Positions 9,091 through 42,034 of a stretch of 49,675 nucleotides of DNA are shown here, one piece after another. The notes beneath the pieces are model-generated. The model made no database searches, had not been told where the DNA came from, and saw nothing but the letters and a program-made list of their open reading frames with translations. The stretch lies in assembly GCA_017883235.1 (NCBI GenBank), contig JADGNY010000040.1, positions 1 through 49,675 on the forward strand, written 5' to 3'. A program made the position numbers and the translations under genes. This DNA is from Thermoanaerobaculia bacterium (GTDB taxonomy: Bacteria; Acidobacteriota; Thermoanaerobaculia; Gp7-AA8). Numbering within the stretch: the first letter of the stretch is position 1; each line of letters starts with the position of its first letter.

Positions 9091-9339
9091 ATGACCCAGA
9101 TGGAATTGCTCGATCTCATCGCGCAGCATACCCGAGAAATCGTGCCCGGCCTCGACGCGCATCAGTTCGTCGCCTCCGACCGCCTGGCCGACCTCGGCGC
9201 CAACTCGATCGATCGCGCCGAAATCGCGATGCTCGTGCAGGAGTCCGTTGGCTTATCGGTTCCGCGCGTCGAACTGTTCGGACCCAGGAACATCGGCGAG
9301 TTGGCTGGTTTGTTCCTGCAGAAACTGAATGCCGCGTAA
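9091..9339 (+). CDS. Free-standing acyl carrier protein of the beta-branching type (AcpK/TaB-like)
   Basis: 82 residues. The phosphopantetheine site is Ser39 in LGANSIDRAEI. The N-S-(I/V/L)-D-R form instead of the usual D-S-L is typical of donor ACPs in HMG-synthase cassettes (AcpK, TaB), which carry malonyl and then acetyl for beta-branching. It overlaps the next gene, a KS with Ser in the active site, by 11 bp (9329-9339), so the two are translationally coupled; that KS is the enzyme expected to decarboxylate malonyl on this ACP. A second, damaged copy of the same ACP lies at 20710-20957. Confidence 0.85.
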   Translation: MTQMELLDLIAQHTREIVPGLDAHQFVASDRLADLGANSIDRAEIAMLVQESVGLSVPRVELFGPRNIGELAGLFLQKLNAA

Positions 9340-10546: not shown

Positions 10547-10548
10547 CC

Positions 10549-11384: not shown

Positions 11385-12146
11385 ATGCGAGTATTTGCCC
11401 TGTCGGATATCCATATCGATTACGACGTGAACGCCAAGTGGATTGCAAATCTATCCATCGCTGAATATCAGGACGACGTGCTCATTCTTGCCGGCGATGT
11501 GACCCATACCCTGCGACTGCTCGGCTGGTGCCTCAGCACACTCGCGAGGCGTTTCAAGGACGTGCTATTCGTACCGGGAAACCACGACTTATGGGTGATA
11601 CGCGAAGGCCGGGAAAAGAATTCATTGCAGAAGTTCGACGACGTCAGCGCGGTGGTCGAATCGAGCGGTGCGTCGATGCAGGCCTTTCGCCGGCGGGGCG
11701 TGTCGATCATTCCGCTGTTGGGATGGTACGACTACTCCTTCGGTGAGCCGAGCGAAGAGCTGAGGTCGATATGGATGGACTATCACGCCTGCCGTTGGCC
11801 GAGCGGATACACGGAAAAAGACGTCGCCGCGCACTTTGCGGCGCTCAATGACAAACAGGTCAGCCTGGCCGGCGACAAGGTCATCACCTACTCGCACTTT
11901 TTGCCGCGCATCGATTTGATGCCGGGGTTCATGCCGGGCGCAGGCAAGCTCCTGTATCCGATCCTGGGCTCGACGCAACTGGATCGCCAGTTGCGAAGGC
12001 TCAACGCAAACATTCACGTCTACGGACACAGCCACATCAATCGTCAAGTGAAGATCGACGGCGTGTCCTACATCAACAATGCTTTCGGCTATCCGAGCGA
12101 AACCTGGATCACGTCGAAACGCCTCATGTGCATCCATGAAAGCTAG
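11385..12146 (+). CDS. Calcineurin-like metallophosphoesterase
   Basis: 253 residues with the complete metallophosphoesterase motif series: D8-x-H10 in SDIHID, Asp38 in LAGDV, N66-H67-D68 in GNHD, a His in TYSHF and the GHSH pair near the C-terminus. These residues bind two metal ions and act on phosphate mono- or diesters. The last 11 bases overlap the start of the phosphopantetheinyl transferase gene (12136), so both are made together. This placement suggests a substrate tied to carrier-protein phosphopantetheine, such as removal of misloaded arms, or a nucleotide or phosphorylated intermediate; neither is shown by the sequence. No signal peptide, so it is cytoplasmic. Confidence 0.8.
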   Translation: MRVFALSDIHIDYDVNAKWIANLSIAEYQDDVLILAGDVTHTLRLLGWCLSTLARRFKDVLFVPGNHDLWVIREGREKNSLQKFDDVSAVVESSGASMQAFRRRGVSIIPLLGWYDYSFGEPSEELRSIWMDYHACRWPSGYTEKDVAAHFAALNDKQVSLAGDKVITYSHFLPRIDLMPGFMPGAGKLLYPILGSTQLDRQLRRLNANIHVYGHSHINRQVKIDGVSYINNAFGYPSETWITSKRLMCIHES

Positions 12147-12984
12147 CGCCGCGGATCGCGCATCCCATGACACGGTGGAGAGCGGGATCATCCCACTCAC
12201 GACGGCGGAGATTCATGTGTGGCTCGCTTTTTACGATGAAATCAGCGAGGAGCGCCTGCATTCCGCCTATCGGGAACTGCTCGATGTTGCGGAGAAGGAG
12301 CAGGAGCCGCGATTCTATTTCGCGAGGGATCGGCGTCGTTATCTGGTGACGCGCGCATTGGTGCGGACGGTATTGTCGCGCTACGTATCCATCGATCCCA
12401 GAGAATGGATCTTTTCCACGAATGCTTATGGTCGCCCCGACGTCGTCAATGCCCAGGCGAGGGATGCCGGGTTATCGTTCAATATCTCGCACACGCACAA
12501 CTTGATCGTCCTGGGTGTGACCAGGCGGCGCGCGTTAGGGGTGGATGTCGAGAATGTCCGCGCGCGCGAGGTATCGATTGACATCGCGGATCGCTATTTC
12601 GCGCCGCGGGAAGTTGCGGCACTTGCTGCCACGCCGCCGCATCAACAGCAGTATCGATTCTTCGAGTACTGGACGTTCAAGGAAGCCTACATCAAGGCGC
12701 GTGGCATGGGTTTGTCCTTGCCCCTCGACAAGTTCAGCTTTCACTACCCCGATGATCGTACCGTCGAGATCGCGATTCATCCCGAGTTGGCGGACGATTC
12801 GGCGCGGTGGCAGTTCTGGCAGTTCCGTCCGAGGCCGGAATACTTGGTCGCGATCTGCGCCGAGCGAGTCGGTACTCAATCTCCGAGCCTGATCGTTCGG
12901 CAGGCAATTCCAATGCTGAGCGACAACCAGTGTGCCGTCGACTTTCTGCGGGTATCAGAAGAGAGTGCCCTGGCTACGACGTAA
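12136..12984 (+). CDS. Sfp-type 4'-phosphopantetheinyl transferase
   Basis: 282 residues. The family motifs are clear: FNISHTHNLIVLGV (substrate loop with S-H), GVDVEN (magnesium-binding acidic motif, usually G-V/I-D-V/I-E) and YWTFKEAYIKARGMGLSLPL (W-x-x-K-E-A-x-x-K). The length is a little above the 230-260 usual for Sfp proteins. It transfers phosphopantetheine from CoA to the ACP and PCP serines of the PKS, NRPS and free ACPs of this cluster. The ATG at 12136 lies inside the end of the metallophosphoesterase gene (11-bp overlap). An upstream in-frame start at 12079 would add 19 residues inside the neighbour's reading frame and is less likely. Confidence 0.9.
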   Translation: MKASAADRASHDTVESGIIPLTTAEIHVWLAFYDEISEERLHSAYRELLDVAEKEQEPRFYFARDRRRYLVTRALVRTVLSRYVSIDPREWIFSTNAYGRPDVVNAQARDAGLSFNISHTHNLIVLGVTRRRALGVDVENVRAREVSIDIADRYFAPREVAALAATPPHQQQYRFFEYWTFKEAYIKARGMGLSLPLDKFSFHYPDDRTVEIAIHPELADDSARWQFWQFRPRPEYLVAICAERVGTQSPSLIVRQAIPMLSDNQCAVDFLRVSEESALATT

Positions 12985-13005
12985 CGATCACAACAGGTGA
13001 GTGCG

Positions 13006-13878
13006 ATGATTGCTTTTCTATTTCCTGGTCAGGGCTCCCAGAAACGGGGCATGGGTCAAGGCTTGTTCGATGACGTGCGCGAATATGCCGCGGCCGAGAA
13101 GGACGTGGACGCGATTCTCGGCTATTCAATGCGAAAGCTGTGTCTGGAGGACGCGGATAATCGCCTGAAAGAAACGCAATTCACCCAGCCCAGTCTTTAT
13201 GTGGTCAATGCGCTGCATTACTACAAGGCCGTAGGTCAGGGCACGCACCCTGCCTACCTGGCAGGTCATAGTCTGGGTGAATACAACGCATTGCTTGCGG
13301 CGGGCGTGTTCGATTTTCTGACCGGGCTGCGGCTGGTGCAGAAGCGCGGCGAGCTGATGTCGCAGGCAAGGAATGGCGGGATGGGAGCGGTGATCGGTCT
13401 GGAGGCGAGCGTGATCGCGAAGGTGATCGACGAAAACGGACTGGCGGGTCTCGACGTCGCGAACTTCAATTCACGGTCGCAAACGGTGGTATCGGGTCCA
13501 GTCGAGGATATCAAGCGCGCGGCCCCTTTCTTCGAAAAAGCAGGCGCGCAAATGTACATTCCTCTCCAGGTCAGTGCCGCCTTTCATTCACGATATATGG
13601 CAGATTCCGCGAAAGCATTCGCTGAGTTTCTGGCGCCGATGTCTTTCGCTGCGCCCAATACTCAGGTCGTTGCCAATGCCACCGGCCAGCCTTATCCCAC
13701 CGACAACGCATCGGAGTCGGTCAAGTCGCTGTTGGTGAATCAGATCACGCATTCGGTGCAATGGACGCAGAGCATCCGTTTCCTCATCGGTCAGGGCGTT
13801 ACGCAATTCAGCGAAATGGGTCCGGGAAATGTGTTGACGCGAATGGTGCAACAAATTCAGCAACAAACGGACACCTAA
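13006..13878 (+). CDS. Discrete trans-acting malonyl-CoA:ACP acyltransferase
   Basis: 290 residues. The catalytic Ser89 lies in GHSLGEY, Arg114 (KRGELM) is the residue that binds the malonyl carboxylate, and His194 lies in AFHSRYM. PGQGSQ at residues 7-12 is the usual N-terminal motif. The PKS at 23484 has no AT domain, so this protein is the probable supplier of malonyl units to all its modules and to the donor ACP at 9091. The ATG at 13006 has AGGTGA five bases upstream; a GTG nine bases earlier overlaps that site and is not preferred. It follows the phosphopantetheinyl transferase by 21 bp. Confidence 0.9.
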   Translation: MIAFLFPGQGSQKRGMGQGLFDDVREYAAAEKDVDAILGYSMRKLCLEDADNRLKETQFTQPSLYVVNALHYYKAVGQGTHPAYLAGHSLGEYNALLAAGVFDFLTGLRLVQKRGELMSQARNGGMGAVIGLEASVIAKVIDENGLAGLDVANFNSRSQTVVSGPVEDIKRAAPFFEKAGAQMYIPLQVSAAFHSRYMADSAKAFAEFLAPMSFAAPNTQVVANATGQPYPTDNASESVKSLLVNQITHSVQWTQSIRFLIGQGVTQFSEMGPGNVLTRMVQQIQQQTDT

Positions 13879-19170: not shown

Positions 19171-19348
19171 CGGGGAGCTCCACCTGCCGCCGCGTTCCGA
19201 ATGCGAAATGCGCGTGCGCGGCAAAATCAGAAGCAAATCCCGCTCGGTCCGACAGACGTAGATCGAAAGTCCGTTGCCGCCGGTAACGTTCCGTTCGGGG
19301 TACGGCGAGGAAATCATTTCTTTCGACCGCGCTGCACAGGAGATCATC

Positions 19349-21106: not shown

Positions 21107-22057
21107 GTGCCCGAGACGATATTCATGTTCTCCGGCCAGGGCTCGCAGTATTTCCACATGGGAAAGGCTCTGTACGATGGCAACCACGACTTCCGCGACT
21201 GGATGCTGCGGCTCGACGAGGTGGCGCACGGGTTGACAGGCAGGTCGGTGATCGAGACGCTCTATTCCGGCGTGAATGGCAAGGCAGATCCATTCGACCG
21301 CACGCTGCTGACGCACCCGGCGATCTTTATGGTGGAATACTCGCTCGCGCAAACTCTGATACAGGCGGGCGTACGGCCGGACATGGTCCTGGGTGTCAGC
21401 ATGGGGTCTTTCGCCGCGGCGACGGTGGCAGGGTTCATTGACGTCGACGATGCCTTGACTGCCGTGATCCGGCAGGCTATTGCGCTGGAGGAATGTTGCG
21501 AGCCCGGAGGAATGGCCGCTGTCCTGGCGGATCCGGCGCTGTTTGCGGAGGATTTCCTCAGCGGCCGCAGCGAGTTGGCGGCAGTCAACTTTGCTTCTCA
21601 TTTCGTCGTGTCCGCAAAACGAACGGAGCTCGCGCAGATCGAGGCCGCCCTGAAGCAACGCAGCATCGTCTATCAGCGGCTTCCGGTGTCTTTCCCATTT
21701 CATTCGCAGTGGATCGATCAGGCGAAAACGTCATTCGGCGCCTTCATGCGATCGATCCACTGCGGGCAAGGCCGGTTGCCGCTGGTTTGCTGCGATCGCA
21801 CGACGATTCTGTCCGGCCTGTCCGATGACTATTTCTGGGATGTCGTGCGGCACCCGATTCGCTTCCGAGAAGCTGCGGCACGATTGGAGCAGGAGGGTGC
21901 GCGCCGATACATCGACGTCGGTCCGGCCGGTACGCTGGCCACGTTCCTGAAATACGGGCTGCCTGCGACCACCAAGTCCACGATGCAGGCGATTCTGACG
22001 CCCTTCGGTTTCGATCAGAAGAATCTGGCAGCGGTGTTGTCCTCGACTGGACACTAG
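21107..22057 (+). CDS. Second AT-like protein, probable trans-acting acyl hydrolase
   Basis: 316 residues with the acyltransferase fold: FSGQGSQ near the N-terminus, nucleophile Ser98 in GVSMGSFAAA and His199 in PFHSQWID. The Arg that fixes the malonyl carboxylate in ATs is missing; the aligned segment IRQAIALEE has Gln or Ala there, depending on a one-residue gap. In trans-AT clusters a second AT-like protein without this Arg is usually an acyl hydrolase (PedC type) that removes stalled acyl groups from ACPs. An AT for a non-carboxylated acyl group is the main alternative. It starts with GTG at 21107, with AGGAG six bases upstream. The KS scar lies directly before it. Confidence 0.8.
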   Translation: MPETIFMFSGQGSQYFHMGKALYDGNHDFRDWMLRLDEVAHGLTGRSVIETLYSGVNGKADPFDRTLLTHPAIFMVEYSLAQTLIQAGVRPDMVLGVSMGSFAAATVAGFIDVDDALTAVIRQAIALEECCEPGGMAAVLADPALFAEDFLSGRSELAAVNFASHFVVSAKRTELAQIEAALKQRSIVYQRLPVSFPFHSQWIDQAKTSFGAFMRSIHCGQGRLPLVCCDRTTILSGLSDDYFWDVVRHPIRFREAAARLEQEGARRYIDVGPAGTLATFLKYGLPATTKSTMQAILTPFGFDQKNLAAVLSSTGH

Positions 22058-23380: not shown

Positions 23381-23491
23381 ATGTTTGGTTTCGTCTTGGT
23401 GCAGCAAATCCAGCAGGCGAAGGATAGCGGACGCCGCTCGTTCTCGTGCACCGACGGGGATCCTTTTTGGCAAGAGACCGACCATGATTGA
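23381..23491 (+). CDS. Possible 36-residue leader peptide overlapping the PKS start
   Basis: An ATG immediately after the TAG of the preceding gene, with GGAGAG a few bases upstream, opens a 36-codon frame that begins MFGFVLVQQIQQAKDSG and stops at 23489-23491, eight bases into the PKS gene. The PKS start itself has only a weak ribosome site, so translation of this frame could feed ribosomes to the PKS by coupling. It resembles no family I know and may be chance. Confidence 0.25.
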   Translation: MFGFVLVQQIQQAKDSGRRSFSCTDGDPFWQETDHD

Positions 23492-26200
23492 CCAGGAACA
23501 ACTGCGCGACCTGACCGAGTCGTATCTGAAATCCGTGATCGCCGAGGCATCGGGATCTTCGAATACTGATTTCGATGCGTCTGCTCCTTTTGGAGAGTTG
23601 GGGATCGATTCGTTCCACGTGCTGAAGATCATCAAAGCGTTGGAGACAGATTTCGGGACGTTGCCCAAGAGCCTGCTCTTCGAGAATTTCAACATCAATG
23701 ATCTGGCGGATTACTTCGTCGCCAAACATGAGGAGACTCTCTCCGCGAAATTCGGGAATGGCTCGCGCGCAGCGAATTCCGTGGTCCGTATCGATCGTCC
23801 ACGAAAGACGGACGCAGCCGCGCGGGTAGCGGGCCTCCGGTCAGGAAGCCGAACCGACGTCGTCGTTCATGAAACGGCGCCCATTCTCATCCTGGAAAAG
23901 GAGGCGTATTCGCATCCTGAACTGAAAGACCTCGTGCGGACGCTCTTCGATCGCTACAAGAACGAGGGCTGTGTCTCCCGCGGGACCAGGAAGATCGCTC
24001 CGAACCTTTTCATCGGCAGTGCCAGACGCGGGTATTTCAACTATGGGCGCGGCAAGGACATCGTCCTCGTATATGGCTACACTGGACCGCGACACTATTT
24101 CCCAGCCCTCGCCGAGGAAATGTACCGGCACTGCCTGGCGAGCGGCTTCCAGCTCAATGTCCTTGCCGACGAGCAACTCCCGCCCATCGGCGGCACGCCG
24201 TTCTCGGCGACGCCCTTCGGCGTCCTGCAGCGCATCGTCAATCTCAAAGAGTTCACTCTCGACGGCGGCGCGATGCGCCGTCTGCGCTATCAGGTGGCGA
24301 AGTTTCAGAAGCTGGGAACGTGCAGAACTGAAGAGTATCGATGCGGTTCGAACAGCGAAACAGATCAGAAGATCGCCGGCATCATCGACCGCTGGTGTGC
24401 ACCCAGGACGATGGTCAACCCGCTCATTCACGACTTCAAGGCGGACGTCCTGGCGGGGACGCTTGCGCCCGAACACCGCGTATTTTCGACGTATCTCGAC
24501 GACGTAATGCAGAACGTCATCCTCATCACGCCGATGTCCGCCGCGGAAAATGGCTATCTGATGGATCTGGAATTCTATCCTCCGGAGATGCCGATGGGAG
24601 GATTGGAGCTCACGATCTTACGAATCATCGAACGTCTCGCCGGGGAGGGCTGCGATGTACTGAGTCTCGGCGGGACGTATGGCTGCAAGCTCGAGTCTTC
24701 CGACAGCGCCGATCCGGAAATCGACAAGATCCTCGACGATCTGCGTGAACAGAACGTGTTCAACGACGCGGGCAATCTTCAGTTCAAGAACAAATTCCGC
24801 CCCGAAAGCAAGACTGTATTCCTCTGTCGCCCTGTCGGTGCTCCCAATCCAGGAAACGTCATCGACATCATCATGATGATCGCCGACCCGGAGAAGATGC
24901 AGACGTCAGACGCAGAGAATCAGAACTACGCCGCGCCGGGCCGGCCCACTTCTTCCGAATCGACGGAAGACGTCACCGAGCGGTCGGTGATCGGAGGAGA
25001 TGGCCGGGCGCGCATCCTGTCGGAGTCCGGCTTCAACCCGCTCAATATCCCGTCTCGACACGTCGAGTCCGATCTGAAGACGGATTCCTGGGCCCAATTG
25101 GAGATGCCTGCGATCGAGGCACAAATGCGGCATCTTCATGGGAATCTTCAGCAGCCCGTCAGTCTGGACGACACGTTGAGAGCGGTCTTTCCTTTCGCTC
25201 ATTTCGTGCTCACCGGCTCCGGGCAGGCGGCCGAGCACATTTTCTTCGAAGCGTGGCCGAAGAAAGGGCTGGTACCTCAGAACCTGCTGTTTCCCAGCAC
25301 CATCTTTCATCAGATCGACAACGGTTTCACGCCCAGGGAAATACCACATCCGGCGGTCTTTCAGCTCGATGCCGAGGAGCCCTGGAAGGGCAATATGGCG
25401 TGGGATGCTCTCGAGACGGAGCTCGAGCGCGATCCGGACGCAATTGCGTTCGCCTGTATCGAGGTGAGTGACAACGCCGCGGGCGGGTGTCCCGTTTCCA
25501 TGCAGCATCTGAGGAGCGTCAAAGCACGTCTGGCGGAACATTCCATTCCGCTGGTGATCGACGCCACACGCGTTGTCGAAAACGCGCAGTTCCTGATCGA
25601 TCGCGACAAGGAACATGCCGGCAAGAGCGTATGGGCGGCCGTGCGAGAAATTCTCTCCTGCGCCGACGCCGTGATCGGCAGCTTGACCAAAGACTTTTGC
25701 ATCGACAAGGGCGGCATCATCGCCACGAATGACGTCAAGCTGTTTCAGAGACTTCAAGAGCTCGTTGATCGGGAAGGAGCCGGTCTCGATCTCATCGAGA
25801 AGAAAGTGATTGCGCTGTCATTCCAGAATCGGAAGCAGATCGAAGCGAGAGTCTTGCGCAGGATGGAGAGCGTTGGCCTGATTTGGCGCGCGTTGAAAGA
25901 GCACGACGTTCCGGTCGCGCACCCTGTCGGCGGGCACTGCATTCTGATCGATGTCAAGCAAATCCCGGAATTCGATCATTTCACCGATCCGGTCGCTTCG
26001 TTTCTCGCCTGGCTGTATCTCAACACCGGAATTCGCGCGGGCGCGCACAGCGCCGGCATGCAAAGGCGTACGCCGATCAATGATCTCGTCCGACTGGCGA
26101 TTCCCGTCGGTCTGAAGCGTGACCAGATCGACGGCATCATCGATCGATTGATTCACGCATTCGAGCAAAAGGTGAACATTCCCGAAGTCGTCGTCGAGAG
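23484..26200 (+). other. PKS head: ACP - MprF/DUF2156-like domain - tryptophanase-like PLP lyase
   Basis: ACP with Ser43 in LGIDSFHVL. The next ~345 residues match the MprF/DUF2156 GNAT pattern: SLDGG-type segment (TLDGGAMRRLRYQVAKFQKLG), YLMDLEFYPPEMPMGGLEL and GCDVLSLGG. In MprF this fold transfers an amino acid from a tRNA. The following ~390 residues follow tryptophanase/tyrosine phenol-lyase: AAGGCPVSM, IDATRVVENAQFLI (Asp693 and Arg696, expected PLP contacts), GSLTKDFCIDKGG (Lys736, expected Schiff-base Lys), GGHCILID and LYLNTGIRAGAHSAGM. The PLP site thus looks functional. The order ACP-(extra domain)-(PLP lyase) recalls ACP-DUF-SH of the leinamycin synthase, in which SH cleaves a C-S bond of a cysteine adduct. 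Whether the domains are homologous cannot be judged here. Confidence 0.8.
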
Positions 26201-29200
26201 CAGTGCGCCGCGGGCTTTGGGCGATGTCCACGCGACGTACAAGCTCGTTCGATATCACCGGATGTCCGGCAACAGCGTCGCTGAGAACGAGGCGACGAGT
26301 GCGTACCGCTCGCCGACGCCGACGCCGGCGGGGGCGAGCCCTTCGACGGACACCGCCACGGCCGAACCTGTGTTCAGGCAAGCGGAGTCTTCCCGGATTC
26401 CGGTGAAAAACAACGTTCGCCGGCAGCAAGACGTCGCCGTTGTGGGAATCGCGGGCCGTTATCCGAAAGCGAAGACTCCGCGAGAACTGTGGGAGAACCT
26501 GGCTCGAGGAAGAGACTGTATCGAGGAAATACCGGCGGATCGTCGCGAATGGCGTCTACAGCATGGGAGCGCGGCGAGGTATCGCGGAGGCTTCATTGAC
26601 GACGTCGACAAGTTCGACTCCTTGTTCTTCAGCATTTCTCCACGCGAGGCGGAAATGTTGGATCCTCAAGAGAGGCTGTTCCTCGAGGTGGCCTGGGAAG
26701 TGATCGAGGATGCAGGCTACTACCCGGACACGCTCGCGCAGGATGACGGCTCGCGAAACGTGGGCGTGTTCGTCGGTGCGGTGTGGGCGATGTATCAAAT
26801 GCTCGGCGTCGAGGAGAAGTACGCCGCCAACAAGATCGTTCCGAATTCGTTCCTGTGGAGCATCGCCAACCGAGTCTCCTATTGCCTGAATCTGTCCGGC
26901 CCCAGCTTGACCGTCGACACAGCCTGCTCCTCGAGCCTGACCGCCCTCTACCTCGCGTGCGAAGCGATCTATGCCGGCGAGTGTTCGGCCGCCATCGTCG
27001 GCGGCGTGAACCTCGACCTCCATCAGGCCAAATTCGACATCAATCACACGGGCGGCGCGCTGTCGCCTGACGGTGTCTGCCGCAGCTTCGGGAAGGGTGC
27101 CAATGGCTATGTGATGGGAGAGGGCGTCGGCGCGCTCCTTCTCAAGCCTCTCGATCGCGCGGTCCAGGACGGCGACCATGTTTATGGTGTGATCAAGAGC
27201 GCCGTGGTCAACCACGGTGGGCGGACGAGCGGATATACCGTTCCGGATCCGAAAGCGCAAGCCAGCCTGATCTCGGAGGCTCTCGAACGAGCGAACATCG
27301 GGGCACGGACGATCGGGTATATCGAAGCGCATGGCACAGGCACCGCCCTGGGCGACCCCGTCGAAATCAGCGGTCTGAGTAAGGCCTTCAGCGCAGACGC
27401 CGTCGCGAATCAGAGCTGCGCGATCGGTTCGATCAAGAGCAACATCGGTCATCTGGAAGCGGCGGCCGGCGTCGTCAGCGTCTCCAAAGTGCTTCTGCAG
27501 ATGAAGCAGCGGCAGCTCGTGCCGTCCTTGCATTCTTCCGAGCCGAACGAGTTCATCGATTTCGCCAACTCGCCTTTCTACGTGCCACAGCAGTTGCAGG
27601 AATGGAAGGGACAGGAAGTGGATGGAGTGCGCGTGCCGCTGCGCGCAGGCGTCAGCTCCTTTGGCGCGGGCGGATCGAACGCGCACATCATTCTCGAGAG
27701 CTACGAGCCGGCACAACAGGCCGAGGAGCCGGCTGAACCGGACGCGCTGATTTTTCCTCTTTCCGCAAGAAGTGAAGATCAGTTGCGCGAGGCCGCTTCT
27801 CGCCTGACGGCCTTCCTCCGTGAGAGCGATGAAGATTTCCGCGACATTGCTCACACCCTGCAAGCCGGCCGGAAGTCATTCGATCATCGAGTGGCGGTCA
27901 TCGCCAGCGCGAAGGACGATCTGCTGGCAAAGCTGGCCTCCTTCATCACGGCGAAGAAGTCCGAAGACGTGGTCGTCGGCCATGTCAAAAACTCGGAGAG
28001 CATCACCCGATTACTGAATCGACGAGAGAAAGGGGAATTCGTCCGGCTGTTTTCGCAGAGTGGCGATCCTCACAAAATCGCCGCGCTTTGGGCCGAAGGG
28101 CTGCTCTCGGATTGGCAGGGGTTTCCGTCGCACGGCTCGCGGAACAAAGTTTCTTTGCCGACGTATCCCTTTGCCGACAAGCGGCACTGGGCGTTTCAGA
28201 AGTCAACCGTCCGACGCGCTTTTCAGTCATCGGCGGCCGTACACCCGATGCTCGACAGCAATGAGTCGACGTTCGAGCGTCAGCTCTTCAAGAAGACATT
28301 CAACGACCGCGATTTCTTCATTTACGACCATCATGTATCGGACATTCCCACTCTGCCCGGGGTCGCTTACCTGGAGCTGGCGCGGAAAGCCGGCGAGATC
28401 GCAGCGGGCAGAAAAATACGGAAGATCAAGAACATCCTCTGGGTGAGCCCGATTGCCGTTCAGAACTCCACACCGAAGGAGGTGTTCGTCGAGCTCAAAC
28501 CCAGCGACGCCACAGTGCGTTTCGAAGTATTCAGCAACGACGATAAGGGCGGCAAAGTTCTCCATTCGCAAGGGACGCTCCTTTACGAGACGCTACAGGA
28601 AACCACGGCGGAGCCGGAATCCATCGACCTCGAGGCAATTCGCGCCAGGTGCACGAAAGTGACGGACGGAAAGACCGCCTATCCGCTCTTCAAATCATTC
28701 GGCTTGAATCTCGGCCCCAGCTTTCAAGTGCTTCAGGAGGTCTACAAGAACGAAACCGAGACCCTCGGCGCTCTGAAGTTGCCGGAGCTCCGCGCGGGCG
28801 ACCTGGAAAGCATGGCTCTGCCGCCGTCCCTCCTCGACGGTTCTTTACAGGCGGGAATGGCCGCTCAGCTCGGCGGACAGATGGGAGAGATGTACGTGCC
28901 GTACTCGATCGGCGAGGTCGAGATCCTGCAGCCTCTCGTATCCAATTGCTTCAGCTATGTCACCGAGGCAAAGGAAGGCAAGAAGAGCTCACGAGTCCTG
29001 AAGAGCAATGTGCTCATCGTCGACGAAACGGGAAAGGTTCTCGTCAAGATTCGGGAATCCGTCGGCGTGCCTCTCGGCGACATCTTCAAGAAACCGGCTC
29101 AGAGTGCGGACGCCGGCGAATTTTCGAAGCTGTACTACTCATACGAATGGGAGAAAGCGGCGCTGGCCGCGAGCGGTGCGGCGAAGAGCGCCCGCCGGCT

Positions 29201-32200
29201 CCTGATTTTCGATACGAGCGAAACGCTGCGCGATCTGTATCGCGCGCGCCTCAGAGAAGCTGGAGTTGGCGACGATGATGTCATCCTGGTCAGACCGGGA
29301 GAGGCATTTCAGGACTCCGGCAATCATTCCTACACGGTCAATCCCCACGACAAAGACGACTTCACGCGGCTCTTCGGAACGCTGGCCGGTCAGCAACGCC
29401 CCGTGGAAGACATCTGTTTCGCTTGGCCGCTCGGTGACAATGAGCCCCACGATCAGAACTTTCTGAAGCAGTCTTTGGAGAGAGGGGTCTACTCCTTCCT
29501 CTTCGTGTGCCAGGCGTTGATCGAGCACAAAATGGAGTCCGCCGTTCAACTGCTCTATGTCCATTCATCGAGACCGGATGAGGTTCAGCCGCACCATGAC
29601 GCGGTGCGCGGCTTCGTCAACACACTTCGTCTGGAGCATTCGAAGCTGCTCTGCAAAACGGTCGAGGTCCGGCGCGAGGGTGTCGGGTACGAACCGGTTC
29701 TCGACGCCGTTGCGGCGGAGTTTCAGGCGCGCACACAGGATGCTGCGGCCGTGCGGTACGAGGGGCAGGAGCGTTCCATCAAGAAGCTCAAGGCGTTCGA
29801 TCTGGAACCTGCCACCGGCGCTCCGGCTTCCGAGGGTGCGCGCATCAGGGAGAACGGCGTCTATCTGATTACGGGCGGTGCGGGCGGACTGGGTCTGATC
29901 TTCGCGGAGTACCTGGCGAAAGAGCATAAGGCGAAGCTGATCCTCACGGGTCGTTCGACACTCTCTGCCGAGCGCGAGGCCAGGTTGGACGAGCTGCGAA
30001 AGGCAGGCGCCGAGGTCCTTTACGTGCCTGCTGACGTCTCCAACTACGAGGACGTGGAGAAGGTCGTCAACGAGGCGAAATCGCGTTTTGGAGCGATCCA
30101 TGGCGTCATCCACGCCGCCGGCGTGTTGAGAGACTCCTTGATCCGCAACAAGACGGCGGAGGAGATGAGTGCGGTCTTTGCGCCGAAGGTGCATGGAACG
30201 CTTCATCTGGACGAAGTGACCAAAAACGAAGGGCTCGACTTCTTCGTGACCTTCTCGTCGCTGGCGTCCGTCACCGGTAATGCCGGGCAGTGCGACTACA
30301 GTTTCGCCAATCACTTCATGGACTCGTTTGCGGCGGGCCGCGAGCTCCTTCGCGCGAAGGGAGCAAGGTCCGGAAAAACGCTCAGCATCAACTGGTCGAT
30401 CTGGGCCGGCGGCGGAATGAGACTCGATGAGCAGGCCGCGGCCTACTTCAAGAAAACGCTGGGAATATCGCCTTTGAGCGCTGCAGCCGGCCTCGACGCC
30501 TTTGTTCGCGGTCTTGCATCGGCAAGAACCCAGTTCGCGGCGCTCGAGGGCGTGCAAGAGAAGGTGGAGCTGGCGTGGGGACTGAGAAAGAAACAACCTG
30601 CAGCGGAGGCACCTGCATCCGCCACCCAGACCGTCAGCGCGCCGGCCGGTGATCAGTTAGACGGCGATCTTCGAGCGCGGCTCCAGAACGGTCTGACGCA
30701 GATCGTCATGGAATTCCTGAAACTCGACGCCGATGACGTGTCGCCGGACAAGATTCTTCTGGATCTCGGTTTCGACTCGATCGGTTTGACTTCATTTGCA
30801 AACGCGATCAACGACAAATATCAGCTCGACATCACGCCGGTGCTCTTTTTCGATTACCCGTCGCTCGCCGAGATAACGAAGTATCTGTGCACGGAGCACG
30901 AAAGCGAGATTCGACGTTTCTATGGAGGCTCCGCAAGCGAGCCTGTGACGGCCTCGCCGCCGGCGCAGCCGGTCGCTGACGTCATGCCGCTCGACAGCCG
31001 GCAGGAGGCGAAGCTCGAAATCAAGAAGGGGTGGACTCCTGCTGCTCTCGACCGCGACGCAGTGCCTCGATCTTCGGACGGGGGCTTCTCTCCGGAACAT
31101 CGTTTCGTCAACGAGCCGATCGCCATCGTCGGCATGAGCGGCGTCATGCCGCAATCCGAAGACCTCGACGAGTTCTGGGAAAACCTGAAGGAATCCACGG
31201 ACATGATCACCCTCATCCCGCCGGATCGCTGGAGATGGGAGGACTTCTACGGCGATCCGCTGAAGGAGTCCAATAAGACGAACTCCAAGTGGGGCGGATT
31301 CATGAAGGAGGTCGACAAGTTCGATGCCCTGTTCTTCGGGATCTCGCCGAGGGAAGCGCACATGATGGATCCGCAACAGCGGATCTTCCTGGAGACCGTC
31401 TGGAAGGCGATCGAGGATTCCGGACAAAAGGTCTCTGATCTGTCCGGCACGAAGACCGGGCTCTTTGTGGGCGTGGCCACGAATGATTACATCGATGTAC
31501 TGAGAGATCGGCAGGCCGTCCTCGACGGCTATTCCGCCGCTGGGAATTCCCACTCGGTGCTGGCGAATCGCGTTTCATTCCTGCTCAATCTGCGCGGTCC
31601 CAGCGCGCCTATCGACACGGCGTGTTCAAGCTCATTGGTCGCTCTGCACAGAGCGATCGAATCGATTCACACGCGCAGTTGCGACATGGCCATTGTGGGC
31701 GGCGTGCAGGTCATGCTCACCCCGGCCGCGTACATTTCGTTCAGCGCGGCCGGGATGCTGAGCCCTGACGGGAAATGCAAATCCTTCGACAAGAGCGCCA
31801 ATGGCTATGTGCGCGGAGAGGGGAGCGGTGCGATCTTCATCAAACGGCTATCGGCAGCCGAGGCTGACGGAAATCACATTTATGCCGTCATCAAGGCCAC
31901 GGCGGAAAATCACGGTGGAAAGGTCACGACGCTGACGGCGCCGAATTCGTCGGCGCAAGCCGAGCTTCTGATCGAGGCGTATGAAAAGGCACAGATCGAC
32001 CCCTCGACCGTCGGCTATATCGAATGCCACGGGACGGGAACCAGCCTGGGCGATCCCATCGAGATCCAGGCTCTGAACAAGGCGTTCTCCGAGCTGTACA
32101 AGAAGCGCAGCAAGCCGCCCGCGGCCACCCCTCACTGCGGCTTGAGCTCGGTCAAGACCAACATCGGCCATCTCGAGACGGCTGCCGGCATTGCCGGCAT

Positions 32201-35200
32201 GTTGAAAGCATTGCTGGCGATCGAACACAAACAAATCCCGGCGAATATTCACTTCGAAGAGCTCAATCCATACATCAATCTGAAGGGAAGTCCCTTCTAC
32301 ATCGCGGACAAGCTCACTCCGTGGCCGGCGCCGATCGGCGAGGATGGGTTGCCGGCGCCGCGCAGAGCGGGTGTGAGCTCTTTTGGTTTCGGTGGCGCCA
32401 ATGCCCACATCGTGCTGGAGGAGTACATCCCGCCGCAGCGTCAATCGGCGGCCACGGCAGACGGCCCGCAATTGATCGTGCTGTCCGCGAAGAACGAGGA
32501 CCGGCTGAAAGCGTATGTGCGATCCATGCTCGATTATCTCGGCAAGCGAGAGGTGGAGCTGATCGACCTGGCGTACACGCTACAGGTTGGAAGAGACGAG
32601 ATGCCGGAGCGATTGGCGTTGGTCGCTGCGAGCACGGCGGAGTTGAAGCAGAAACTCAACGAGATTCTCGACGGCGGCGCGCCGACAGACGCTTACCGCA
32701 ACAACATCACGAGCAAGCAGTCGAAGTCGCAGGCGGCGGAGCATTCGGCGGGAGACGCGGCCGTCCAGGCCCTCATCGAGCGGAAAGATCTGTCCAAGGT
32801 GGCGGAGCTCTGGGTATGCGGAGCCAAAATCGACTGGCGCCTGCTGCACAAGGCGAGTACGCCGAGGCGTATCTCGGTCCCAACCTACCCCTTTGCGAGG
32901 GAGCGCTACTGGATTCCGGCTCTGGAGGGACTCGCGGTCGAGAGCCGGCAACGCCGGGGCTCGGTTGCGGCGGAGCTTCTGCATCCTCTCGTCCATCGGA
33001 ATACGTCGACATTACAGGAACAGAAATTCTCGTCCCGATTCTCGGGAGACGAGTTCTTTTTTGCGGATCACGTCGTCGAAACGCAAAAGATCCTGCCCGG
33101 CGTGGCGTATCTGGAGATGGCCAGAGCCGCGGGAGAGCTGTCGGGGAGCGCGAACGTTCGCGTCATTCGAAACCTGACCTGGGAAAGACCTCTGATCATC
33201 GACAATGGGGCCAAAGATGTCGAAGTATCGCTTTCGCCGGCCAGGAATGGGGTCAAGTTCGCGGTAAAGACGGTAGCCGGAGAGAGTGCGATTACGCACT
33301 GTACCGGTACATTGGCGTACGAAGCCGGCAAGGCCGCACCTGAATTTCTCGACATCTCCGGGATCAGGGAACGCTGTTCTCAGCAGGTCATGTCGGGTAG
33401 CGACCTTTATCCCTTCCTGAGCAGCGCCGGTCTCAAACTGGGAAGGAGTTTCCAGGTCGTCCAGGGCATTTACGCCAACGAGTCCGAGTCGCTGGCGATT
33501 CTGCAATTGCCCGAGCATCTGAAGGCGGAGGCAGACCAGTTCTGGCTGCACCCGGCCCTCATGGACGGTTCGCTGCACACCTTCATCGGACTGCTGAAGA
33601 CGAGCGGAATGGAAGTGCCGTTGAGTCTGCCCTATTCGGTGGCGGAAGTGCAGATCGTCCATCCGCTCCGCGACCTGTACTACGGATACGCCACCTGGTC
33701 AGTGGATCCAAAGGTCAGCCTTGATCGCCTGAAGGCTACCTTCCACCTTCTGGACAGGAATGGCAAAGTCCTGGTGCGGCTGAAAGATTTCGTATCCAAA
33801 CCATTGAACCGGGGCACGATGAAGGTGAGTCTCCAATCGAGAGACGATCAGCCTGAGCGCGCTACAGTGCAGGAAGAAGTCGAGACGTGCCTGCAGGCTG
33901 TGCGTCCGGTCTGGAATCCGGTGCGCGTCGAGCCGGCCATGCCGGTGGCCCTTCCGGAGCCGGGCACGATCCTCCTCCTGGGTGGCGACCGACTGGACTG
34001 GGTCCGGACGTCGTACCCGAGCTCGCAGCTCCTGGATCTCGCCTCGACGTCCGATGTCGGCGTCATTGAGGAAAAACTGCGCGATCGCTCGTTCGATCAG
34101 TTGCTTTGGGTCGCTCCCGATGCAAGTCTCGAAGCTGGTAGCCGGATCGACGGCGGTGACCGGATCGTCGAGCAGCAGGAGGAGGGCGTTGTGGCTGTCT
34201 TTCGCATCGTCAAGGCGCTGCTGCGCCTGGGGTATGCGAACAAGAAGCTTCAATGGACGATCGTCACCGGCAGAACACAGCGCGTCGTTGACGACGAGCC
34301 GATACAGCCAGCGCACGCGGGAATCGCCGGCCTGGTGGGCAGTCTGGCGAAAGAGTTTCCCCGTTGGGATCTGAGGCTGTTGGATGTCGATTCGCTGGCA
34401 TCCGTGTCTGCTCGCGAGTGCCTGTCACTGCCGTGGAACAAGCAAGGCGACGGGCTGGCGCATCGTCGCGGTGAATGGTTCCAGCAAGGATTCGCCGCCG
34501 TTGCAACGTTGCCTGAGGCGAAGCCGGTCTATCGGCAAAACGGGGTCTACGTCGTGATCGGCGGTGCGGGTGGTGTGGGCGAAGTATGGAGCCGGTTCAT
34601 GATCGAGAACTACCAGGCCAACGTGGTCTGGATCGGCCGGCGCGCAAGCGATGCAGTCATTGAGAGCAAGATCGAGGCGCTGGCCCGGCTCGGCAATGCG
34701 CCTTTGTATGTTTCGGCCGACGCAACCAACGCGGATTCGCTGGCGCAGGCATACGAAACGATCCTGAAGACGCATCCCGCCATTCACGGGGTCGTTCAAT
34801 CGGCGATCGTTCTTCAGGATCAGAGCATCGCCCGGCTGGAAGAGCCGGCGTTCAGGGCCAGCCTGGCCGCGAAAGTCGACGTCAGCGTGAACATGGATCG
34901 AGTGTTCGGCGGGAAAGAGCTGGATTTCATGCTCTTCTTCTCATCCATCATCTCGTTCTTCAAGACCCCCGGACAGTGCAATTATGCGGCCGGCAGTACC
35001 TTCGAAGACAGTTTCGCGTTGAAGTTGCAGCAGGAGCGCGCCTACCCCGTCCGAGTCATGAATTGGGGCTATTGGGGCAGCGTCGGCGTCGTCGCCGACG
35101 AATTTCACAACAAGATGATGGCGCAGATCGGTCTGGGATCGATCGAGCCGGGCGAAGGGATGTCGTCGCTGCAGGCGTTGGTCGGCTCCGACGTGCCGCA

Positions 35201-38200
35201 AATGGCGCTGATCAAGACACTCCACAGGGAGCCGCTCGCAGGCTTGACTGTATCGGAGGCCATCACCCGTCAACTTGCGCGAATGATGCCGCGGCAGGCG
35301 CCTGTCGCCGCGGAGGTGCCGCGCACCGGCGACGCACGAGATGAAATTCAGCCATCGCAGACGGCCGAGGTGACCATGCAGATGGAAACCGATTCCATAC
35401 GGCGAATCATTACGCAGAAACTCTCCGAGGCCCTCAGAATGGACGCTGGCAGAATCCGCGACGATGCGCCATTCGCGGAGTACGGAGTCGATTCGATCAT
35501 CGGCGTCAATTTCGTCCGGACGATCAATGAGACGCTGCAGATCGAGCTCGAGCCGGCGAGCCTGTTCGAATACAGCACCGTCGAAGAACTGAGCCAGTAC
35601 ATCGCCAAGAGCTTTGGAGACCGGATCGTTGGCCGGCAGGCCAACGATCGCCACCTGGCGGAAGAGCCTCGGCGCGCGACAACTCCGGCTCGAGTCGAGG
35701 TCGAAGCGCGCTCGGAGCACCGCTTCGCCGGAACGGAACGATTTGCCGGCGTGCGAGATCGATTCGATTTCGCGGGCGAGAGCCACTCAGGAAATTTCGG
35801 TGCCGAGCCCATCGCAATCATCGGTATGAGCGGGCGTTTCGCGGAATCGGAGTCTCTCGATACATTCTGGGAAAAGCTCGCACAGGGCACGCATCTGGTC
35901 AAAGAGGTCTCTCGTTGGGCACCGAGAGATTGTGTCATGTCCGAGCCCGCGGGCCACGGGTATTGCAGTTACGGCAGCTTCATCGAGTCCATCGATCGAT
36001 TCGATCCGGCGTTTTTCGGGATCTCGTCGCAAGAAGCCACCTACATGGACCCTCAACAACGCTTGTTCCTCGAGGAATCCTGGAGAGCGCTGGAAGATGC
36101 CGGGTACGCCGGCAAGGCCGTGCACGAGAAGCAATGCGGCGTCTACGTTGGTTGCGGGAGCTCCAATTATGACCAGCTTTTCATGGAAGAAGCGCCGCCG
36201 CACGCCTTCTGGGGAAATTCGGCATCGGTGATTCCCGCTCGGATCGCTTACCACCTGAATCTGCAAGGGCCCGCGATCGCGGTCGATACGGCCTGCTCCA
36301 GTTCCCTCGTGGCCATCCATCTGGCCTGCCAGGGTCTGTGGGCGCGGGAAACGGAGATGGCGCTGGCGGGCGGTGTCTTTCTGCAGGCAACTCCCGGGTT
36401 CTACCAGGTCGCCAATCGTGCGGGAATGCTCTCTCCGGACGGGAAGACCCATAGCTTCGACGCGAGTGCTAATGGGTTCGTGCCCGGCGAGGGAGTTGGT
36501 GTGGTGGTGCTGAAGCGCCTGCGAGACGCTCTGAACGATGGGGACTACGTCCACGGAGTCATTTCAGGGAGCGGCATCAATCAGGACGGCAGATCGAATG
36601 GTCTGACAGCACCGAACGGCCGCGCACAAGAGCGGCTGGAACGCTCGGTGTATGACCGATTCGAGATCAACCCGGAAACGATTCAGGTCGTCGAAGCCCA
36701 TGGCACGGGCAGCCCGTTGGGAGACTCGATCGAGTACGGAGCGATCAGCCGCGCTTTCCGCGAGTATACGGACAGGAAGCAATTCTGCGCGCTCGGCACG
36801 ATCAAAACGAATATCGGGCATTCCGCCACGGCCGCAGGCGTCGCCGGTGTCCTGAAGCTCCTGCTGTCGCTGAAGCATCGGCAGATCCCTCCCTCCCTGC
36901 ATTTTGAGAAAGGTAATCCGGCAATCGATTTCGACTCGAGCCCGTTCTATGTGAATACGCAATTGCGAGAATGGGCCGTAGAAGGCGACGAAAGACGGCG
37001 AGCGGCCATTAGCTCGTTCGGATTCAGCGGTACGAATGCGCATTTGATCATTGAAGAGGCGCCGTCGATCGATGGCGCGGCGGCCGGCGCGCCGGCCTAT
37101 CTGGTGGCGCTCTCGGCCCGAACTTCGGAGCAATTGACACGACAAGCGTTCAATCTGCTCGCGCATCTCGAGCGTACGCCTGATCTGCCGCTCAACGATT
37201 TGAGCTTCACTCTGTTCGTCGGGCGTATGCATTTGAGCCATCGCCTGGCCTGTGTCGCGCGCAACCAGGAGGAGCTAGTCAACCGTCTCCGGCAATGGGC
37301 CGAGACGGGCGCGGCGGCTGAAACCTATGCGTCGGAGGTTCAGGAGCGAAGAACACGTGAGCACGTTGCGCTGAAGAGATTCGGAAACTACTGCATTCAG
37401 GAGTGCAGAGAGGCAACGACGGCCGAGAGCTATCTGGAGAATTTGACGGCCGTCGCCGATCTCTACGCGCAGGGATACGTTCTGGACTTTCAGCATCTAT
37501 TCCCCGGCAATTCCAGGAGGATTCCGCTGCCGGCGTACCCGTTTGCCGACGAGCGCTACTGGGTCGGCGCGGCGGGTACCAGGACCACGCGACCGGCAGT
37601 GGCTCCAGCGGCGGCACTTCACCTGAGGCCGCACATCGGCATGCCAGAGACCGCCGGCCAGAGCTACGGCTCCAGCGTCAGCGGCGCAGGTGAAGATCTG
37701 TTCGGGTGGCTACAGAATCAACTGTCAATGCTGGCCATGGAGTGCCTGAAAGTCGATGACGGCGACATTGCGACGGACAAGGTGCTGATCGATCTGGGCT
37801 TCGATTCACTCGGCCTGACGAAGTTTGCGAGCGCGATCAACGAGAAGTATCAACTCGATATCACACCGGTTCTGTTCTTCGATTACCCGTCGATCGCAGA
37901 GATTGCGCAGTATCTGGCCGTGCAGCGGGAGAGCGAGATTCGGCCGTTCTATCAGGATTCCGCTGCCGCGACGCATGCCGTCGCGCCGGCGTCGCTGCGC
38001 TCCACCGGGCGAACGGGCGCGGTGCTGAGCCCATCGCAATCAGCGGTCATGTCTCCGTCGCTCGGCCGACGAGTTTCTCCGACACGCAGTGCTGCAAACG
38101 AGCCGATCGCGATCGTCGGCATCAGCGGCGTCATGCCGCAGTCCGACGATCTGGAGGCGTGGTGGGAGAATTTGAGAAACTCCAGGAACCTGGTCACCGT

Positions 38201-41200
38201 CATTCCCGAGGACCGGTGGGACTGGGAAGAGTATTACGGCAACCCGCACAAAGAGCCGAATAAATCGAACTCCAAGTGGGGCGCCTTCATGAAGGAGGTC
38301 GACAAGTTCGACTCGTTGTTCTTTGGAATCTCGCCAAGAGAAGCGCAGATGATGGACCCGCAGCAGCGGATCTTTCTCGAAACGGTATGGACGGCAATCG
38401 AGGATTCCGGGCAGAAGGTGTCCGATCTCGCCGGTACGCGCACGGGGCTGTTCGTGGGCGCGGGCGGCAATGATTATGTCGAGGTCCTGCGTAATCACAA
38501 TGTCACGATCGACGGATATTCAGCCTCGGGGAACAGCCACTCGATTCTGGCCAATCGCGTTTCCTTCCTGCTCGATCTGCGCGGACCGAGCGCGCCTATC
38601 GACACCGCGTGTTCCAGCTCCCTGATTGCCCTGCACCGAGCGGTCGAATCGATCCACTCTGGAAGCTGCGACATGGCCATCGTCGGTGGCGTGCAGGTCA
38701 TGCTGACCCCGGCGCCATACATCGCGTTCGGCACTGCGGGAATGCTGAGCAACGATGGGAAATGCAAGACCTTCGACAAGAGCGCAAATGGCTATGTGCG
38801 AGGCGAAGGCGTCGGAGCCATGTTCCTCAAGCCACTGTCGCTCGCCGAGGCGGACGGCAATCCGATCTACGCGGTCGTCAAGGCGACGGCGGAGAATCAC
38901 GGCGGGAGGGTGATGACGCTGACGGCGCCGAGCTCGACGGCACAGGCGGCTCTCCTGATCGAAGCGTATGAAAGAGCGCAGATCGACCCCACCACCGTCG
39001 GATATATGGAATGCCACGGCACGGGCACGAGTCTTGGCGATCCGATCGAAGTGCAGGCGCTGACGATGGCATTTTCGGAACTGTACAAGCGGCACGGCAA
39101 AGCTCCCGCGGAAGTACCGCACTGCGGCCTTGGCTCCGTCAAGACGAATATCGGCCATCTGGAGACGGCCGCCGGCATCGCGGGCGTGCTGAAGGTCTTG
39201 CTCGCCATCAAGCACAAAGAGATTCCGGCGACCATTCATTTCGAGGAGCTCAATCCTTACATCAATCTCAGGAATACGCCCTTCTATATCGTCGATGAGC
39301 TCACTCCCTGGAATGCCCCAACGGGCAGAGATGGCGCACCCGTTTCTCGCAGAGCGGGTGTGAGCTCCTTCGGATTCGGCGGAGCCAATGCCCACGTGGT
39401 GCTCGAAGAGTACATCCCGCCGGATCGTCTATCGCTGGCGCTGGCGCACGGTCCGCAATTGATCGTGTTGTCCGCAAAGAAGGAAGACCGGCTGAAGGCG
39501 TACATGCAGTCCTTGCACGCGTACATCGATCGGCACGAGGTCGAGTTGGCCGGCCTTGCTTACACGCTGCAAGTTGGAAGAGACGAGATGCCGGAGAGGC
39601 TGGCATTGGTCGTCTCGAGCACGGAAGACCTGAAAGAGAAACTCGAAGAAATTCTCGCCGGTGGCCGGCCGAGCGACTGCTACCGCCATCACGTCAGAAA
39701 AGCGGACGCAAAAACCCCGAAGGTCCCCAGTACGGAAGCACTCGTTCGAGATCTCATGGATCGGAACGAGCTTTCGAAGCTGGCGGAACTGTGGGTTTCC
39801 GGCGCGAAGATCGACTGGGATCTGCTCTACAAGTCCGGCCGGCCGAGGCGCATCTCTGTTCCTACCTATCCGTTTGCGAGGGAGCGCCATTGGCCGGTGG
39901 TGGCAGGAACGCGGATCGACGTGCGACAAGCCCGCACCATCCAACCGCTCGATGGCGGTGGAATTGAGGCGGCTTCAGGACGAGGAGTCGATCGGATCGC
40001 GACAGACGGGCAGGAAGAAATCCATGCACGTTTGCAATCGTGGGTTCCGGCCTGGAACGCCGTGCATATCGAAGCGACCAAACGGATCGCCCTGCCGGAA
40101 TCGGTCGGAATCCTTCTGCTCGGAACAGACCGAGCGGCCCTGGACTGGCTCCGGGCGTGCTATCCGGGATCGGAGCATTTGCAAGTGGCTCCGACATCGA
40201 GCGTCGAGAGTATTGCAAGGGAGCTTCGCAATCACTCGTTCGATCAGTTGCTCTGGATCGCGCCTGACGTCGATTGTGGCGGCGGTGAAGTCCGGTATGA
40301 CGACGAGCGGCTCATCGAACAGCAGGAAAGTGGAGCGGTGGCTGTATTTCGCATCATCAAGGCCCTGCTGCAGTCGGGGTACGCGACGAAAAAGCTTCAA
40401 TGGACAGTCGTCACCGGCATGACGCAGGCAGTGACGGAGGATGAGCCGATTCATCCCGCGCACACGGGAATCGCCGGCCTGACCGGCACTCTGGCGCAGG
40501 AGTATCCGATCTGGGATCTGAAGCTGCTGGACGTGGATTCGCTCGCATCGATGACGGCTGCGGAATGCTTGTCGCTGCCGTGGGACAAGCGAGGCAACAT
40601 GCTGGCGCATCGGCGAGGCGAATGGTTCCAGCAAACGCTGAAGCTCGTGACCACCCTTCCCGGGTCAACTCCCGTCTACCGGCAAAACGGAGTCTATGTC
40701 GTGATCGGCGGCGCCGGCGGAGTCGGCGAAGTATGGAGCCGGTACATGATCGAGCACTACCAGGCCAACATCGTCTGGATCGGCCGGCGCCCCTACGACA
40801 CCGCCATCGAGCACAAGCTCAAATCGCTGGCCCGACTGGGTAATTCTCCTCTGTATGTCCCGGCCGATGCGACCAGCCTGGACTCATTGGAACAGGCACT
40901 TCAAACGATCCTGAAGACGTATCCGGTCATTCACGGAGTTGTACACTCGGCCGTAGTTCTGGACGATCAGGGCCTCGGTCGCATGGAGGAATCGACATTC
41001 AGAGCCGGCTATTCAGCGAAAGTCGACATCAGCGTCAACATGGAGAGAGTGTTCGGCTCGCAAGAGCTGGATTTCATGCTCTTCTTTTCTTCCATTGCCT
41101 CCTTTCTCAAGGGTATCGGGATAGCGCCTTACGCCGCCGGCTGTACCTTCAAAGACAGTTTCGCGCGAACGCTGCAGCAGAAGCGCACGTACCGCACCAA

Positions 41201-42023: not shown

Positions 42024-42034
42024 CAGAGGTCTGC

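Follow-up and report, generated by a model that had tools for sequence, protein, structure and literature searches.

The window analysed here, a stretch of 49,675 nucleotides that makes up the entire contig C35 of the Thermoanaerobaculia bacterium genome (GCA_017883235.1; 6.9 Mb in 246 contigs), carries an open frame (23484-42023, + strand) for one polyketide synthase (PKS) protein that starts with an acyl carrier protein (ACP) domain, a DUF domain and an SH domain. The domain order of this protein is ACP-DUF-SH, KS-DH-KR-ACP, KS-DH-KR-ACP, KS-ACP, KS-KR-ACP (KS, ketosynthase; DH, dehydratase; KR, ketoreductase). Ahead of the first KS, Pfam recognized, in this order, PP-binding (2.5e-10), LPG_synthase_C (PF09924, 1.6e-13) and Beta_elim_lyase (PF01212, 2.3e-26), confirming the succession of ACP, MprF-like domain and pyridoxal phosphate (PLP) lyase in one chain that the first-pass annotation of this DNA had described. 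The window therefore contains a DUF-SH didomain module, understood as an ACP followed by a PF09924 DUF and then by SH. The ACP-DUF-SH block occupies 23484-26201 (+), and the parts of the protein are as follows.

23484..23753, + strand: N-terminal ACP (ACP1), Pfam PF00550, Ser43 in GIDS being the GxDS serine
23865..24902, + strand: DUF of the LPG_synthase_C / MprF-like fold (Pfam PF09924; AlphaFold model; Foldseek and VIA matches)
25020..26201, + strand: SH of the PLP-dependent (thio)cysteine lyase type (Pfam, structure match, tree, residue comparison)
25560-25562, 25569-25571 and 25689-25691, + strand: SH catalytic codons Asp693, Arg696 and Lys736, computed from the ATG at 23484
26439..27743, + strand: KS1, Cys-His-His intact, in one tree group with KSs after SH in other loci
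28404..30908, + strand: DH-KR-ACP of the first module after SH
31104..35603, + strand: KS2-DH-KR-ACP
35769..37928, + strand: KS3-ACP
38094..41753, + strand: KS4-KR-ACP

By its sequence, the lyase of the window is an SH domain. Its closest solved structure was 9cen, 'Polyketide Synthase Protein' (E 8.5e-62), as against 1.9e-44 for tyrosine phenol-lyase (TPL). In a quick tree of 45 rows, seven rows of TPL and tryptophanase (TnaA), three of them annotated so and four labelled by us, including a stand-alone homologue on contig C152 of this genome, were set apart by a branch of 1.62 (SH-aLRT 100). The window appeared on the side of the leinamycin-type SH domains and clustered with five other Acidobacteriota SH domains; the Lachnospiraceae row sits on a very long branch, its position being unsure. 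The leinamycin-type rows are Streptomyces/Kitasatospora plasmid loci (L116-L119), a label of ours given since three of them have genes annotated as LnmK-family and hydroxymethylglutaryl-CoA synthase (HMGS) next to the didomain. The PLP residues Lys, Asp and Arg, together with the carboxylate Arg, are kept in 36/36 SH rows (L092 and the short L057 excluded), including the window, where Asp693, Arg696 and Lys736 are present as the first-pass annotation had them, counting from the ATG at 23484. Pro104, Phe238, His355 and Gly376 (36/36) and Cys319 (35/36; alignment numbering) are common to the leinamycin-type and N-terminal-type SH domains and missing in the seven TPL/TnaA rows. TPL and tryptophanase are PLP lyases with identical catalytic Lys, Asp and Arg, but the window SH belongs to another tree group, has other pocket residues and lacks a counterpart of the residue that we take to be Arg381 of TPL. 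The NCBIfam models of tyrosine phenol-lyase/tryptophanase scored it under their cut-offs, and the tree and residue comparison ruled out a tryptophanase or TPL fused to a PKS. The motif of TPL Tyr71 was not found, which left this position unreadable. A dead PLP domain was ruled out with respect to Lys, Asp, Arg and the carboxylate Arg, all being kept, the position of TPL Arg100 being Gln here. Neither the structure search, which could have placed the DUF or the lyase in unrelated families, nor the tree and residues, which could have placed the lyase among dead PLP domains, overturned the domain call, which is right and well supported. The parallel with the leinamycin ACP-DUF-SH, drawn in the first-pass annotation, was borne out by the 9cen match, the tree and the SH-only residues, and on these sequence grounds the ACP-DUF-SH unit is most likely of leinamycin type and sulfur-installing.

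The DUF matched, among solved structures searched by sequence, the LpiA/MprF soluble domain (E 7.7e-7). Its AlphaFold model (mean pLDDT 92.8; 46-row alignment), compared by Foldseek and VIA-align, placed the soluble domains of MprF, L-PGS and A-PGS on top (Z from 25.7, the value of L-PGS, down to 21.0), followed by 2hqy, a protein of unknown function (Z 20.6), Sbb17/Sba18 (about 18) and FemX (about 17). All of these matches but 2hqy we take to be aminoacyl-tRNA-dependent transferases, for MprF and FemX partly from general knowledge. D242, E244, R149, Y150, K316, K318 and R320 (numbering of the first alignment row) are identical in 49/49 DUFs, three of which are leinamycin-type, and the stretches DL and FKxKF also occur in MprF sequences. 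In fold and core residues the DUF thus agrees with the MprF-like transferases, sharing with MprF/L-PGS/A-PGS, FemX and Sbb17 the fold and the DL and FKxKF stretches; it differs in having no membrane part and in a substrate that is presumably carrier-bound.

The catalytic role of the DUF is still to be studied according to PMC8479088, in the main text of which the word tRNA was not found, and Escherichia coli cysteinyl-tRNA synthetase is reported to form high levels of CysSSH-tRNA(Cys) (PMC5660078). The modelled fold makes conceivable, although we judge it improbable, that the DUF might be a tRNA-dependent transferase bringing CysSSH from CysSSH-tRNA(Cys) to an enoyl-ACP, after which SH would leave -SSH. 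Such a DUF would account at the same time for the invariant core residues, for the source of thiocysteine and for the likeness in fold to MprF, FemX and Sbb17, and, if true, would link the polyketide line to charged tRNA; the objection is that the tRNA must leave first, since SH retains the Arg holding a free carboxylate.

Scanning a collection of genome contigs with a DUF-SH alignment gave 55 loci. The protein opens with an N-terminal ACP-DUF-SH in one frame, and without an upstream KS in that protein, in 40 of them (two of these, L054 and L087, share one genome); therefore, the order is not due to chance. One more locus (L091) resembles these, its frame breaking after the DUF. In 6/55 loci the ACP is encoded by a small gene of its own ahead of DUF-SH, the didomain is internal to a PKS in 4/55 (L084, L086, L092, L096), the DUF stands alone in 3/55, and L088 starts at a contig edge. 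N-terminal ACP-DUF-SH occurs in Acidobacteriota, Bacteroidota and Proteobacteria, and DUF-SH in general in Bacteroidota, Acidobacteriota, Beta- and Gammaproteobacteria and one Lachnospiraceae metagenome-assembled genome (MAG), so that its supposed restriction to last modules and actinobacteria is not supported. In a phylum sample of 396 genomes, the DUF was matched at E 1e-20 only in this genome and in G082, and no didomain match was found in the two congeners searched; this rarity fits horizontal spread.

Several loci deserve mention in their own right. One bin (G011) has two N-terminal ACP-DUF-SH genes (G011:C681, G011:C397; L023, L034), one placed, like that of the window, behind trans-acyltransferase (trans-AT) and accessory genes, the other behind KS-DH and HMGS. 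G082:C31:85227-100937 (L025, L026) lies within an open frame of 17277 aa that encodes two complete DUF-SH modules, and behind one of these comes a condensation (C) domain of a nonribosomal peptide synthetase (NRPS). In the Betaproteobacteria MAG loci L093, L094 and L095 (ORF near 9932-11089) a DUF occurs without SH; in L093 and L094 it lies in a small operon with SDR, AMP ligase, DH-like and MBOAT-like proteins (labels by eye), and such DUFs may act on dehydrated acyl chains. A DUF of 37% identity at G092:C21:37829-38863 (L029) is part of a cis-AT-like module KS-AT-DUF-DH-KR-ACP, with no SH match in the 40 kb read.

The DNA upstream of HMGS was compared in 41 rows from 40 genomes. The last PKS there ends in KS-DH without ACP or thioesterase (TE) in 31 rows; in another five, a bare KS stands at the end, behind DH-KR-ACP. 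In this genome the PKS of contig C100 ends in KS-DH, with both the His and the Asp motif of DH, and is followed by HMGS, while in G011:C681 KS-DH, HMGS and ACP-DUF-SH adjoin. In five clusters that were read through, the first PKS starts with ACP-DUF-SH and is followed by a long-tailed ACP-KS protein, HMGS and enoyl-CoA hydratase (ECH) standing behind the last PKS. Pfam detected a TE in the tail of the gene after ACP-DUF-SH in all three clusters tested (Aquimarina atlantica, Lysobacter and Kordia), and a TE ends an early gene in 4/4 when the NRPS of contig C77 is included. The order on C77 is PCP-C-A-PCP-TE (PCP, peptidyl carrier protein; A, adenylation domain), MATE, GMC oxidoreductase, START genes and a PKS starting with AprA_N, WH_AprA, methyltransferase and ACP-KS. 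AprA-type loading domains start the PKS behind the TE in 2/3 tested N-termini (C77 and Kordia), that of Kordia beginning with an AprA MT2-like domain. Taken together, the TE position, the AprA-type loading domains and the orphan KS-DH ends make the gene order look rotated, with a module late in the line split into KS-DH and ACP-DUF-SH, and ACP1 most likely completes the terminal KS-DH module, as judged from domain composition. The missing end of the NRPS gene of the window (PCP-C-A-PCP-TE) is probably that on C77, and we infer that C35, C77 and C100 represent one cluster. A direct end-to-end join of C35 and C77 was dropped, an exact overlap being absent; C77 and C167 finish in identical 60 bases, taken as a shared repeat. 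In the accessible literature text, supplements and most subscription journals lying outside reach, neither the split into KS-DH and ACP-DUF-SH nor a tRNA role of the DUF was found described.

In a tree of 76 KSs, 21 of the 22 KSs that follow SH formed one group (support 99), including KS1 of the window, the KS after the plainly internal DUF-SH in G082 and the KS of L088 (where the contig edge truncates the upstream part); the remaining one, from the internal Lachnospiraceae module, adjoins this group without support. Trans-AT KSs are commonly sorted in trees by their substrate, and on this ground KS1 probably takes a chain of the kind that is accepted in the internal case. The terminal KSs of Lysobacter, G000 and G011 clustered with KS13 of Kordia and not with its last KS. 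The terminal KSs as a group carry an EGHGTGT variant. In the last DH before HMGS, a regular expression found the His motif in 29/41 rows and the Asp motif in 33/41; it missed C100, where the His is present by eye, and for the five rows with a bare-KS end it picked up a DH that is not terminal. Many lines of the family have a KS-KR-ACP module ahead of the terminal KS-DH, and four internal DUF-SH modules in three records (two in G082, one each in L086 and L096) carry DH and KR, while the internal Lachnospiraceae module is KS-ACP-DUF-SH behind a KS-DH-KR-ACP module. The DH-KR of internal modules, the KS-KR-ACP before the terminal KS-DH and the mostly kept DH motifs point to an enoyl-ACP as the acceptor.

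We hold it probable, with some confidence, that a sulfur-inserting module has been split in the middle of a widespread bacterial trans-AT PKS/NRPS line, and that ACP-DUF-SH forms its second half and the KS-DH on C100 its first. According to the domain order, the KR of the preceding module would make a beta-hydroxy group, from which the C-terminal DH of the KS-DH protein would remove water, so that the chain would reach ACP1 as an alpha,beta-unsaturated thioester. With the help of the DUF, C3 would then undergo conjugate addition by cysteine or by thiocysteine, which analogy makes the likelier nucleophile, and SH would break the cysteinyl C-S bond by PLP chemistry (beta-elimination), so that the chain would retain -SSH or -SH; the former is to be expected from the behaviour of GnmT, LnmJ and WsmR. 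With KS1, the sulfur-bearing chain would enter a series of four PKS modules, and after these NRPS modules and a TE. Of the early-acting sulfur-installing unit that the first-pass annotation had given as one option, the sulfur installation is most likely, while the KS-DH end, the AprA-type domains and the TE speak against the early action.

A number of observations weigh against this assignment. Five of the 41 rows (L138, L139, L140, L143, L145) have neither a KS-DH nor a bare-KS end. No AprA-type domain was found in the unassigned N-terminus before the ACP-like stretch of the PKS behind the TE in A. atlantica, and that of Lysobacter begins close to a KS, after a gene with an A-domain match. 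C35, C77 and C100 are unjoined in the assembly, and no exact overlap was found between the C35 and C77 ends. The grouping of KSs could equally be given by common descent of a DUF-SH-KS block, and the comparison with internal KSs comprises a single plainly internal case (G082). The window lyase has Gln at what we take to be the position of TPL Arg100, with its presumed phosphate role; Arg occurs there in 20, Gln in six and Ala in two of 28 N-terminal-type rows. Finally, the terminal KS keeps Cys-His-His and so may elongate, loss of its active site being unsupported as a ground for non-elongation; if it does, a beta-ketone without KR reaches ACP1 and HMGS branching is needed as in leinamycin, with which the general presence of HMGS (see below) fits as well.

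This leads to the alternative of a leinamycin-like course on the split module, in which the terminal KS elongates, the chain on ACP1 receives a beta-branch from HMGS/ECH and the resulting branched enoyl thioester takes up (thio)cysteine; the leinamycin route makes its enoyl by beta-branching (PMC7618002). Close HMGS homologues (E below 1e-200) were sought for 44 of the 55 loci, in 43 genomes, and found in 39/39 genomes where DUF-SH starts a protein (35 with N-terminal and four with separate ACP); the HMGS label was given by eye, the same probe also finding the genes that are annotated as hydroxymethylglutaryl-CoA synthase in L116, L117 and L119. Together with the intact Cys-His-His of the terminal KS, this speaks for branching, but no close HMGS was found in the four genomes searched with internal DUF-SH (L084, L086, L092, L096), the last DH keeps its motifs in most rows, as given above, and at least one ACP with the Trp flag of beta-branching in each of the five named clusters and on contigs C77 and C167 gives HMGS other work. 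ACP1 has Ile at Ser+6 (Ser43 counted from the ATG at 23484) and hence no such flag, which does not discriminate, the ACPs of leinamycin module 8 being likewise without it (PMC7618002). On balance, we regard beta-branching on ACP1 as rather unlikely. Somewhat more doubtful still is that SH would be only a cysteine lyase leaving -SH, or would remove a bound amino acid leaving no sulfur. The sequence cannot separate cysteine from thiocysteine, and leinamycin SH works on cysteine adducts, inefficiently; yet SH-only residues are shared with leinamycin-type SH, and the three assayed domains (GnmT, LnmJ, WsmR) are thiocysteine lyases, whose efficiency with the cysteine adduct is 50- to 106-fold lower (PMC8479088). 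Both alternatives replace one step each of the split-module scheme, and the likelihoods are not meant to add up to unity.

It is very unlikely that ACP-DUF-SH serves as a loading module, with DUF and SH acting on a starter acyl group or amino acid bound to ACP1 before its transfer to KS1, and sulfur placed at the chain start: its N-terminal place, often in the first PKS gene behind NusG, and the lack of an upstream KS in the same protein in 40 loci would suit this, but it was rejected on the AprA-type loading domains preceded by a TE in two lines, the TE position and the orphan KS-DH C-terminus in 31/41 rows, and KS1 clusters with the KS after internal DUF-SH in G082. The starter chemistry feeding KS1 that the first-pass annotation had offered as an option is accordingly very likely wrong, the AprA-type domains standing after the TE on another contig, C77, tied to this cluster by inference, and the last PKS ending in KS-DH without ACP.

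The remaining features of the cluster are listed below.

6369..6950, + strand: NusG-like protein, cluster border (Pfam NusG)
9329..10546, + strand: free-standing KS with the active Cys replaced (GGASAS; Pfam ketoacyl-synt; motif)
10441..11334, + strand: enoyl-CoA hydratase family protein
12079..12984, + strand: phosphopantetheinyl transferase
12997..13878, + strand: trans-acting acyltransferase 1
21107..22057, + strand: trans-acting acyltransferase 2
41975..49675, + strand: NRPS gene C-A-PCP-C-A-FkbM-like methyltransferase-PCP-C.., truncated where the contig ends (FkbM label by eye)
C100:69192-70448, other contig of the same genome: HMGS

By analogy, the free-standing KS is likely the malonyl-ACP decarboxylase of the HMGS cassette, to which the enoyl-CoA hydratase family protein also likely belongs. 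A NusG match upstream of ACP-DUF-SH was found in many related loci as well. The FkbM-like methyltransferase (48365-49084) is placed between A and PCP of an NRPS module. To the eye, the histidine motifs of the proteins at 19274-20713 and 22106-23380 suggest membrane fatty acid hydroxylases, although Pfam gave no match; several related copies occur in the G011:C397 cluster.

In LnmJ, GnmT and WsmR of the leinamycin, guangnanmycin and weishanmycin systems, the DUF-SH order, the PLP Lys, Asp and Arg, the SH-only residues and an ACP before the didomain are the same as in the window. However, theirs is a terminal KS-ACP-ACP-DUF-SH-TE with a beta-branch (PMC7618002), whereas the window has one ACP and no TE, stands apart from its KS-DH and runs on into KS1 and more modules, and so falls outside the leinamycin family as defined by that terminal arrangement. 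DUF-SH clusters outside this family are already in print (PMC8479088; PMC7618002), and the non-leinamycin families of Meng et al. 2021, compared by description, resemble the window in that their DUF-SH module contains a single ACP and lacks a TE (PMC7618002). The strains reported to carry the cuniculene cluster include Aq78, A. muelleri and Flavobacteriaceae RHTr2, besides Aq349 and EL33, which are not among the 55 loci (PMC9323603; PMC9860996). ACP-DUF-SH is present in Aq78 (L049), A. muelleri (L045) and RHTr2 (L058); in Aq78, frames with at least two KS matches lie on contigs C15 and C21, the latter being the HMGS contig, and single KS matches in a 3228-aa frame on C4 and a 925-aa frame on C32. 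The N-terminal ACP-DUF-SH family seems to include the cuniculene synthase and so to have a published product, the structure paper reportedly being Helfrich 2019. Unlike the cuniculene trans-AT PKS of Aquimarina, the line of the window continues into NRPS modules.

When an N-terminal ACP-DUF-SH is read as the downstream half of a split module, the products predicted for about 40 loci from three phyla change. The comparison suggests that DUF-SH modules differ in the source of the acceptor double bond, which would come from an in-module DH-KR, a separate DH or a beta-branch, and the aminoacyl-tRNA transferase fold of the DUF makes both the source of thiocysteine and the role of this domain directly testable.

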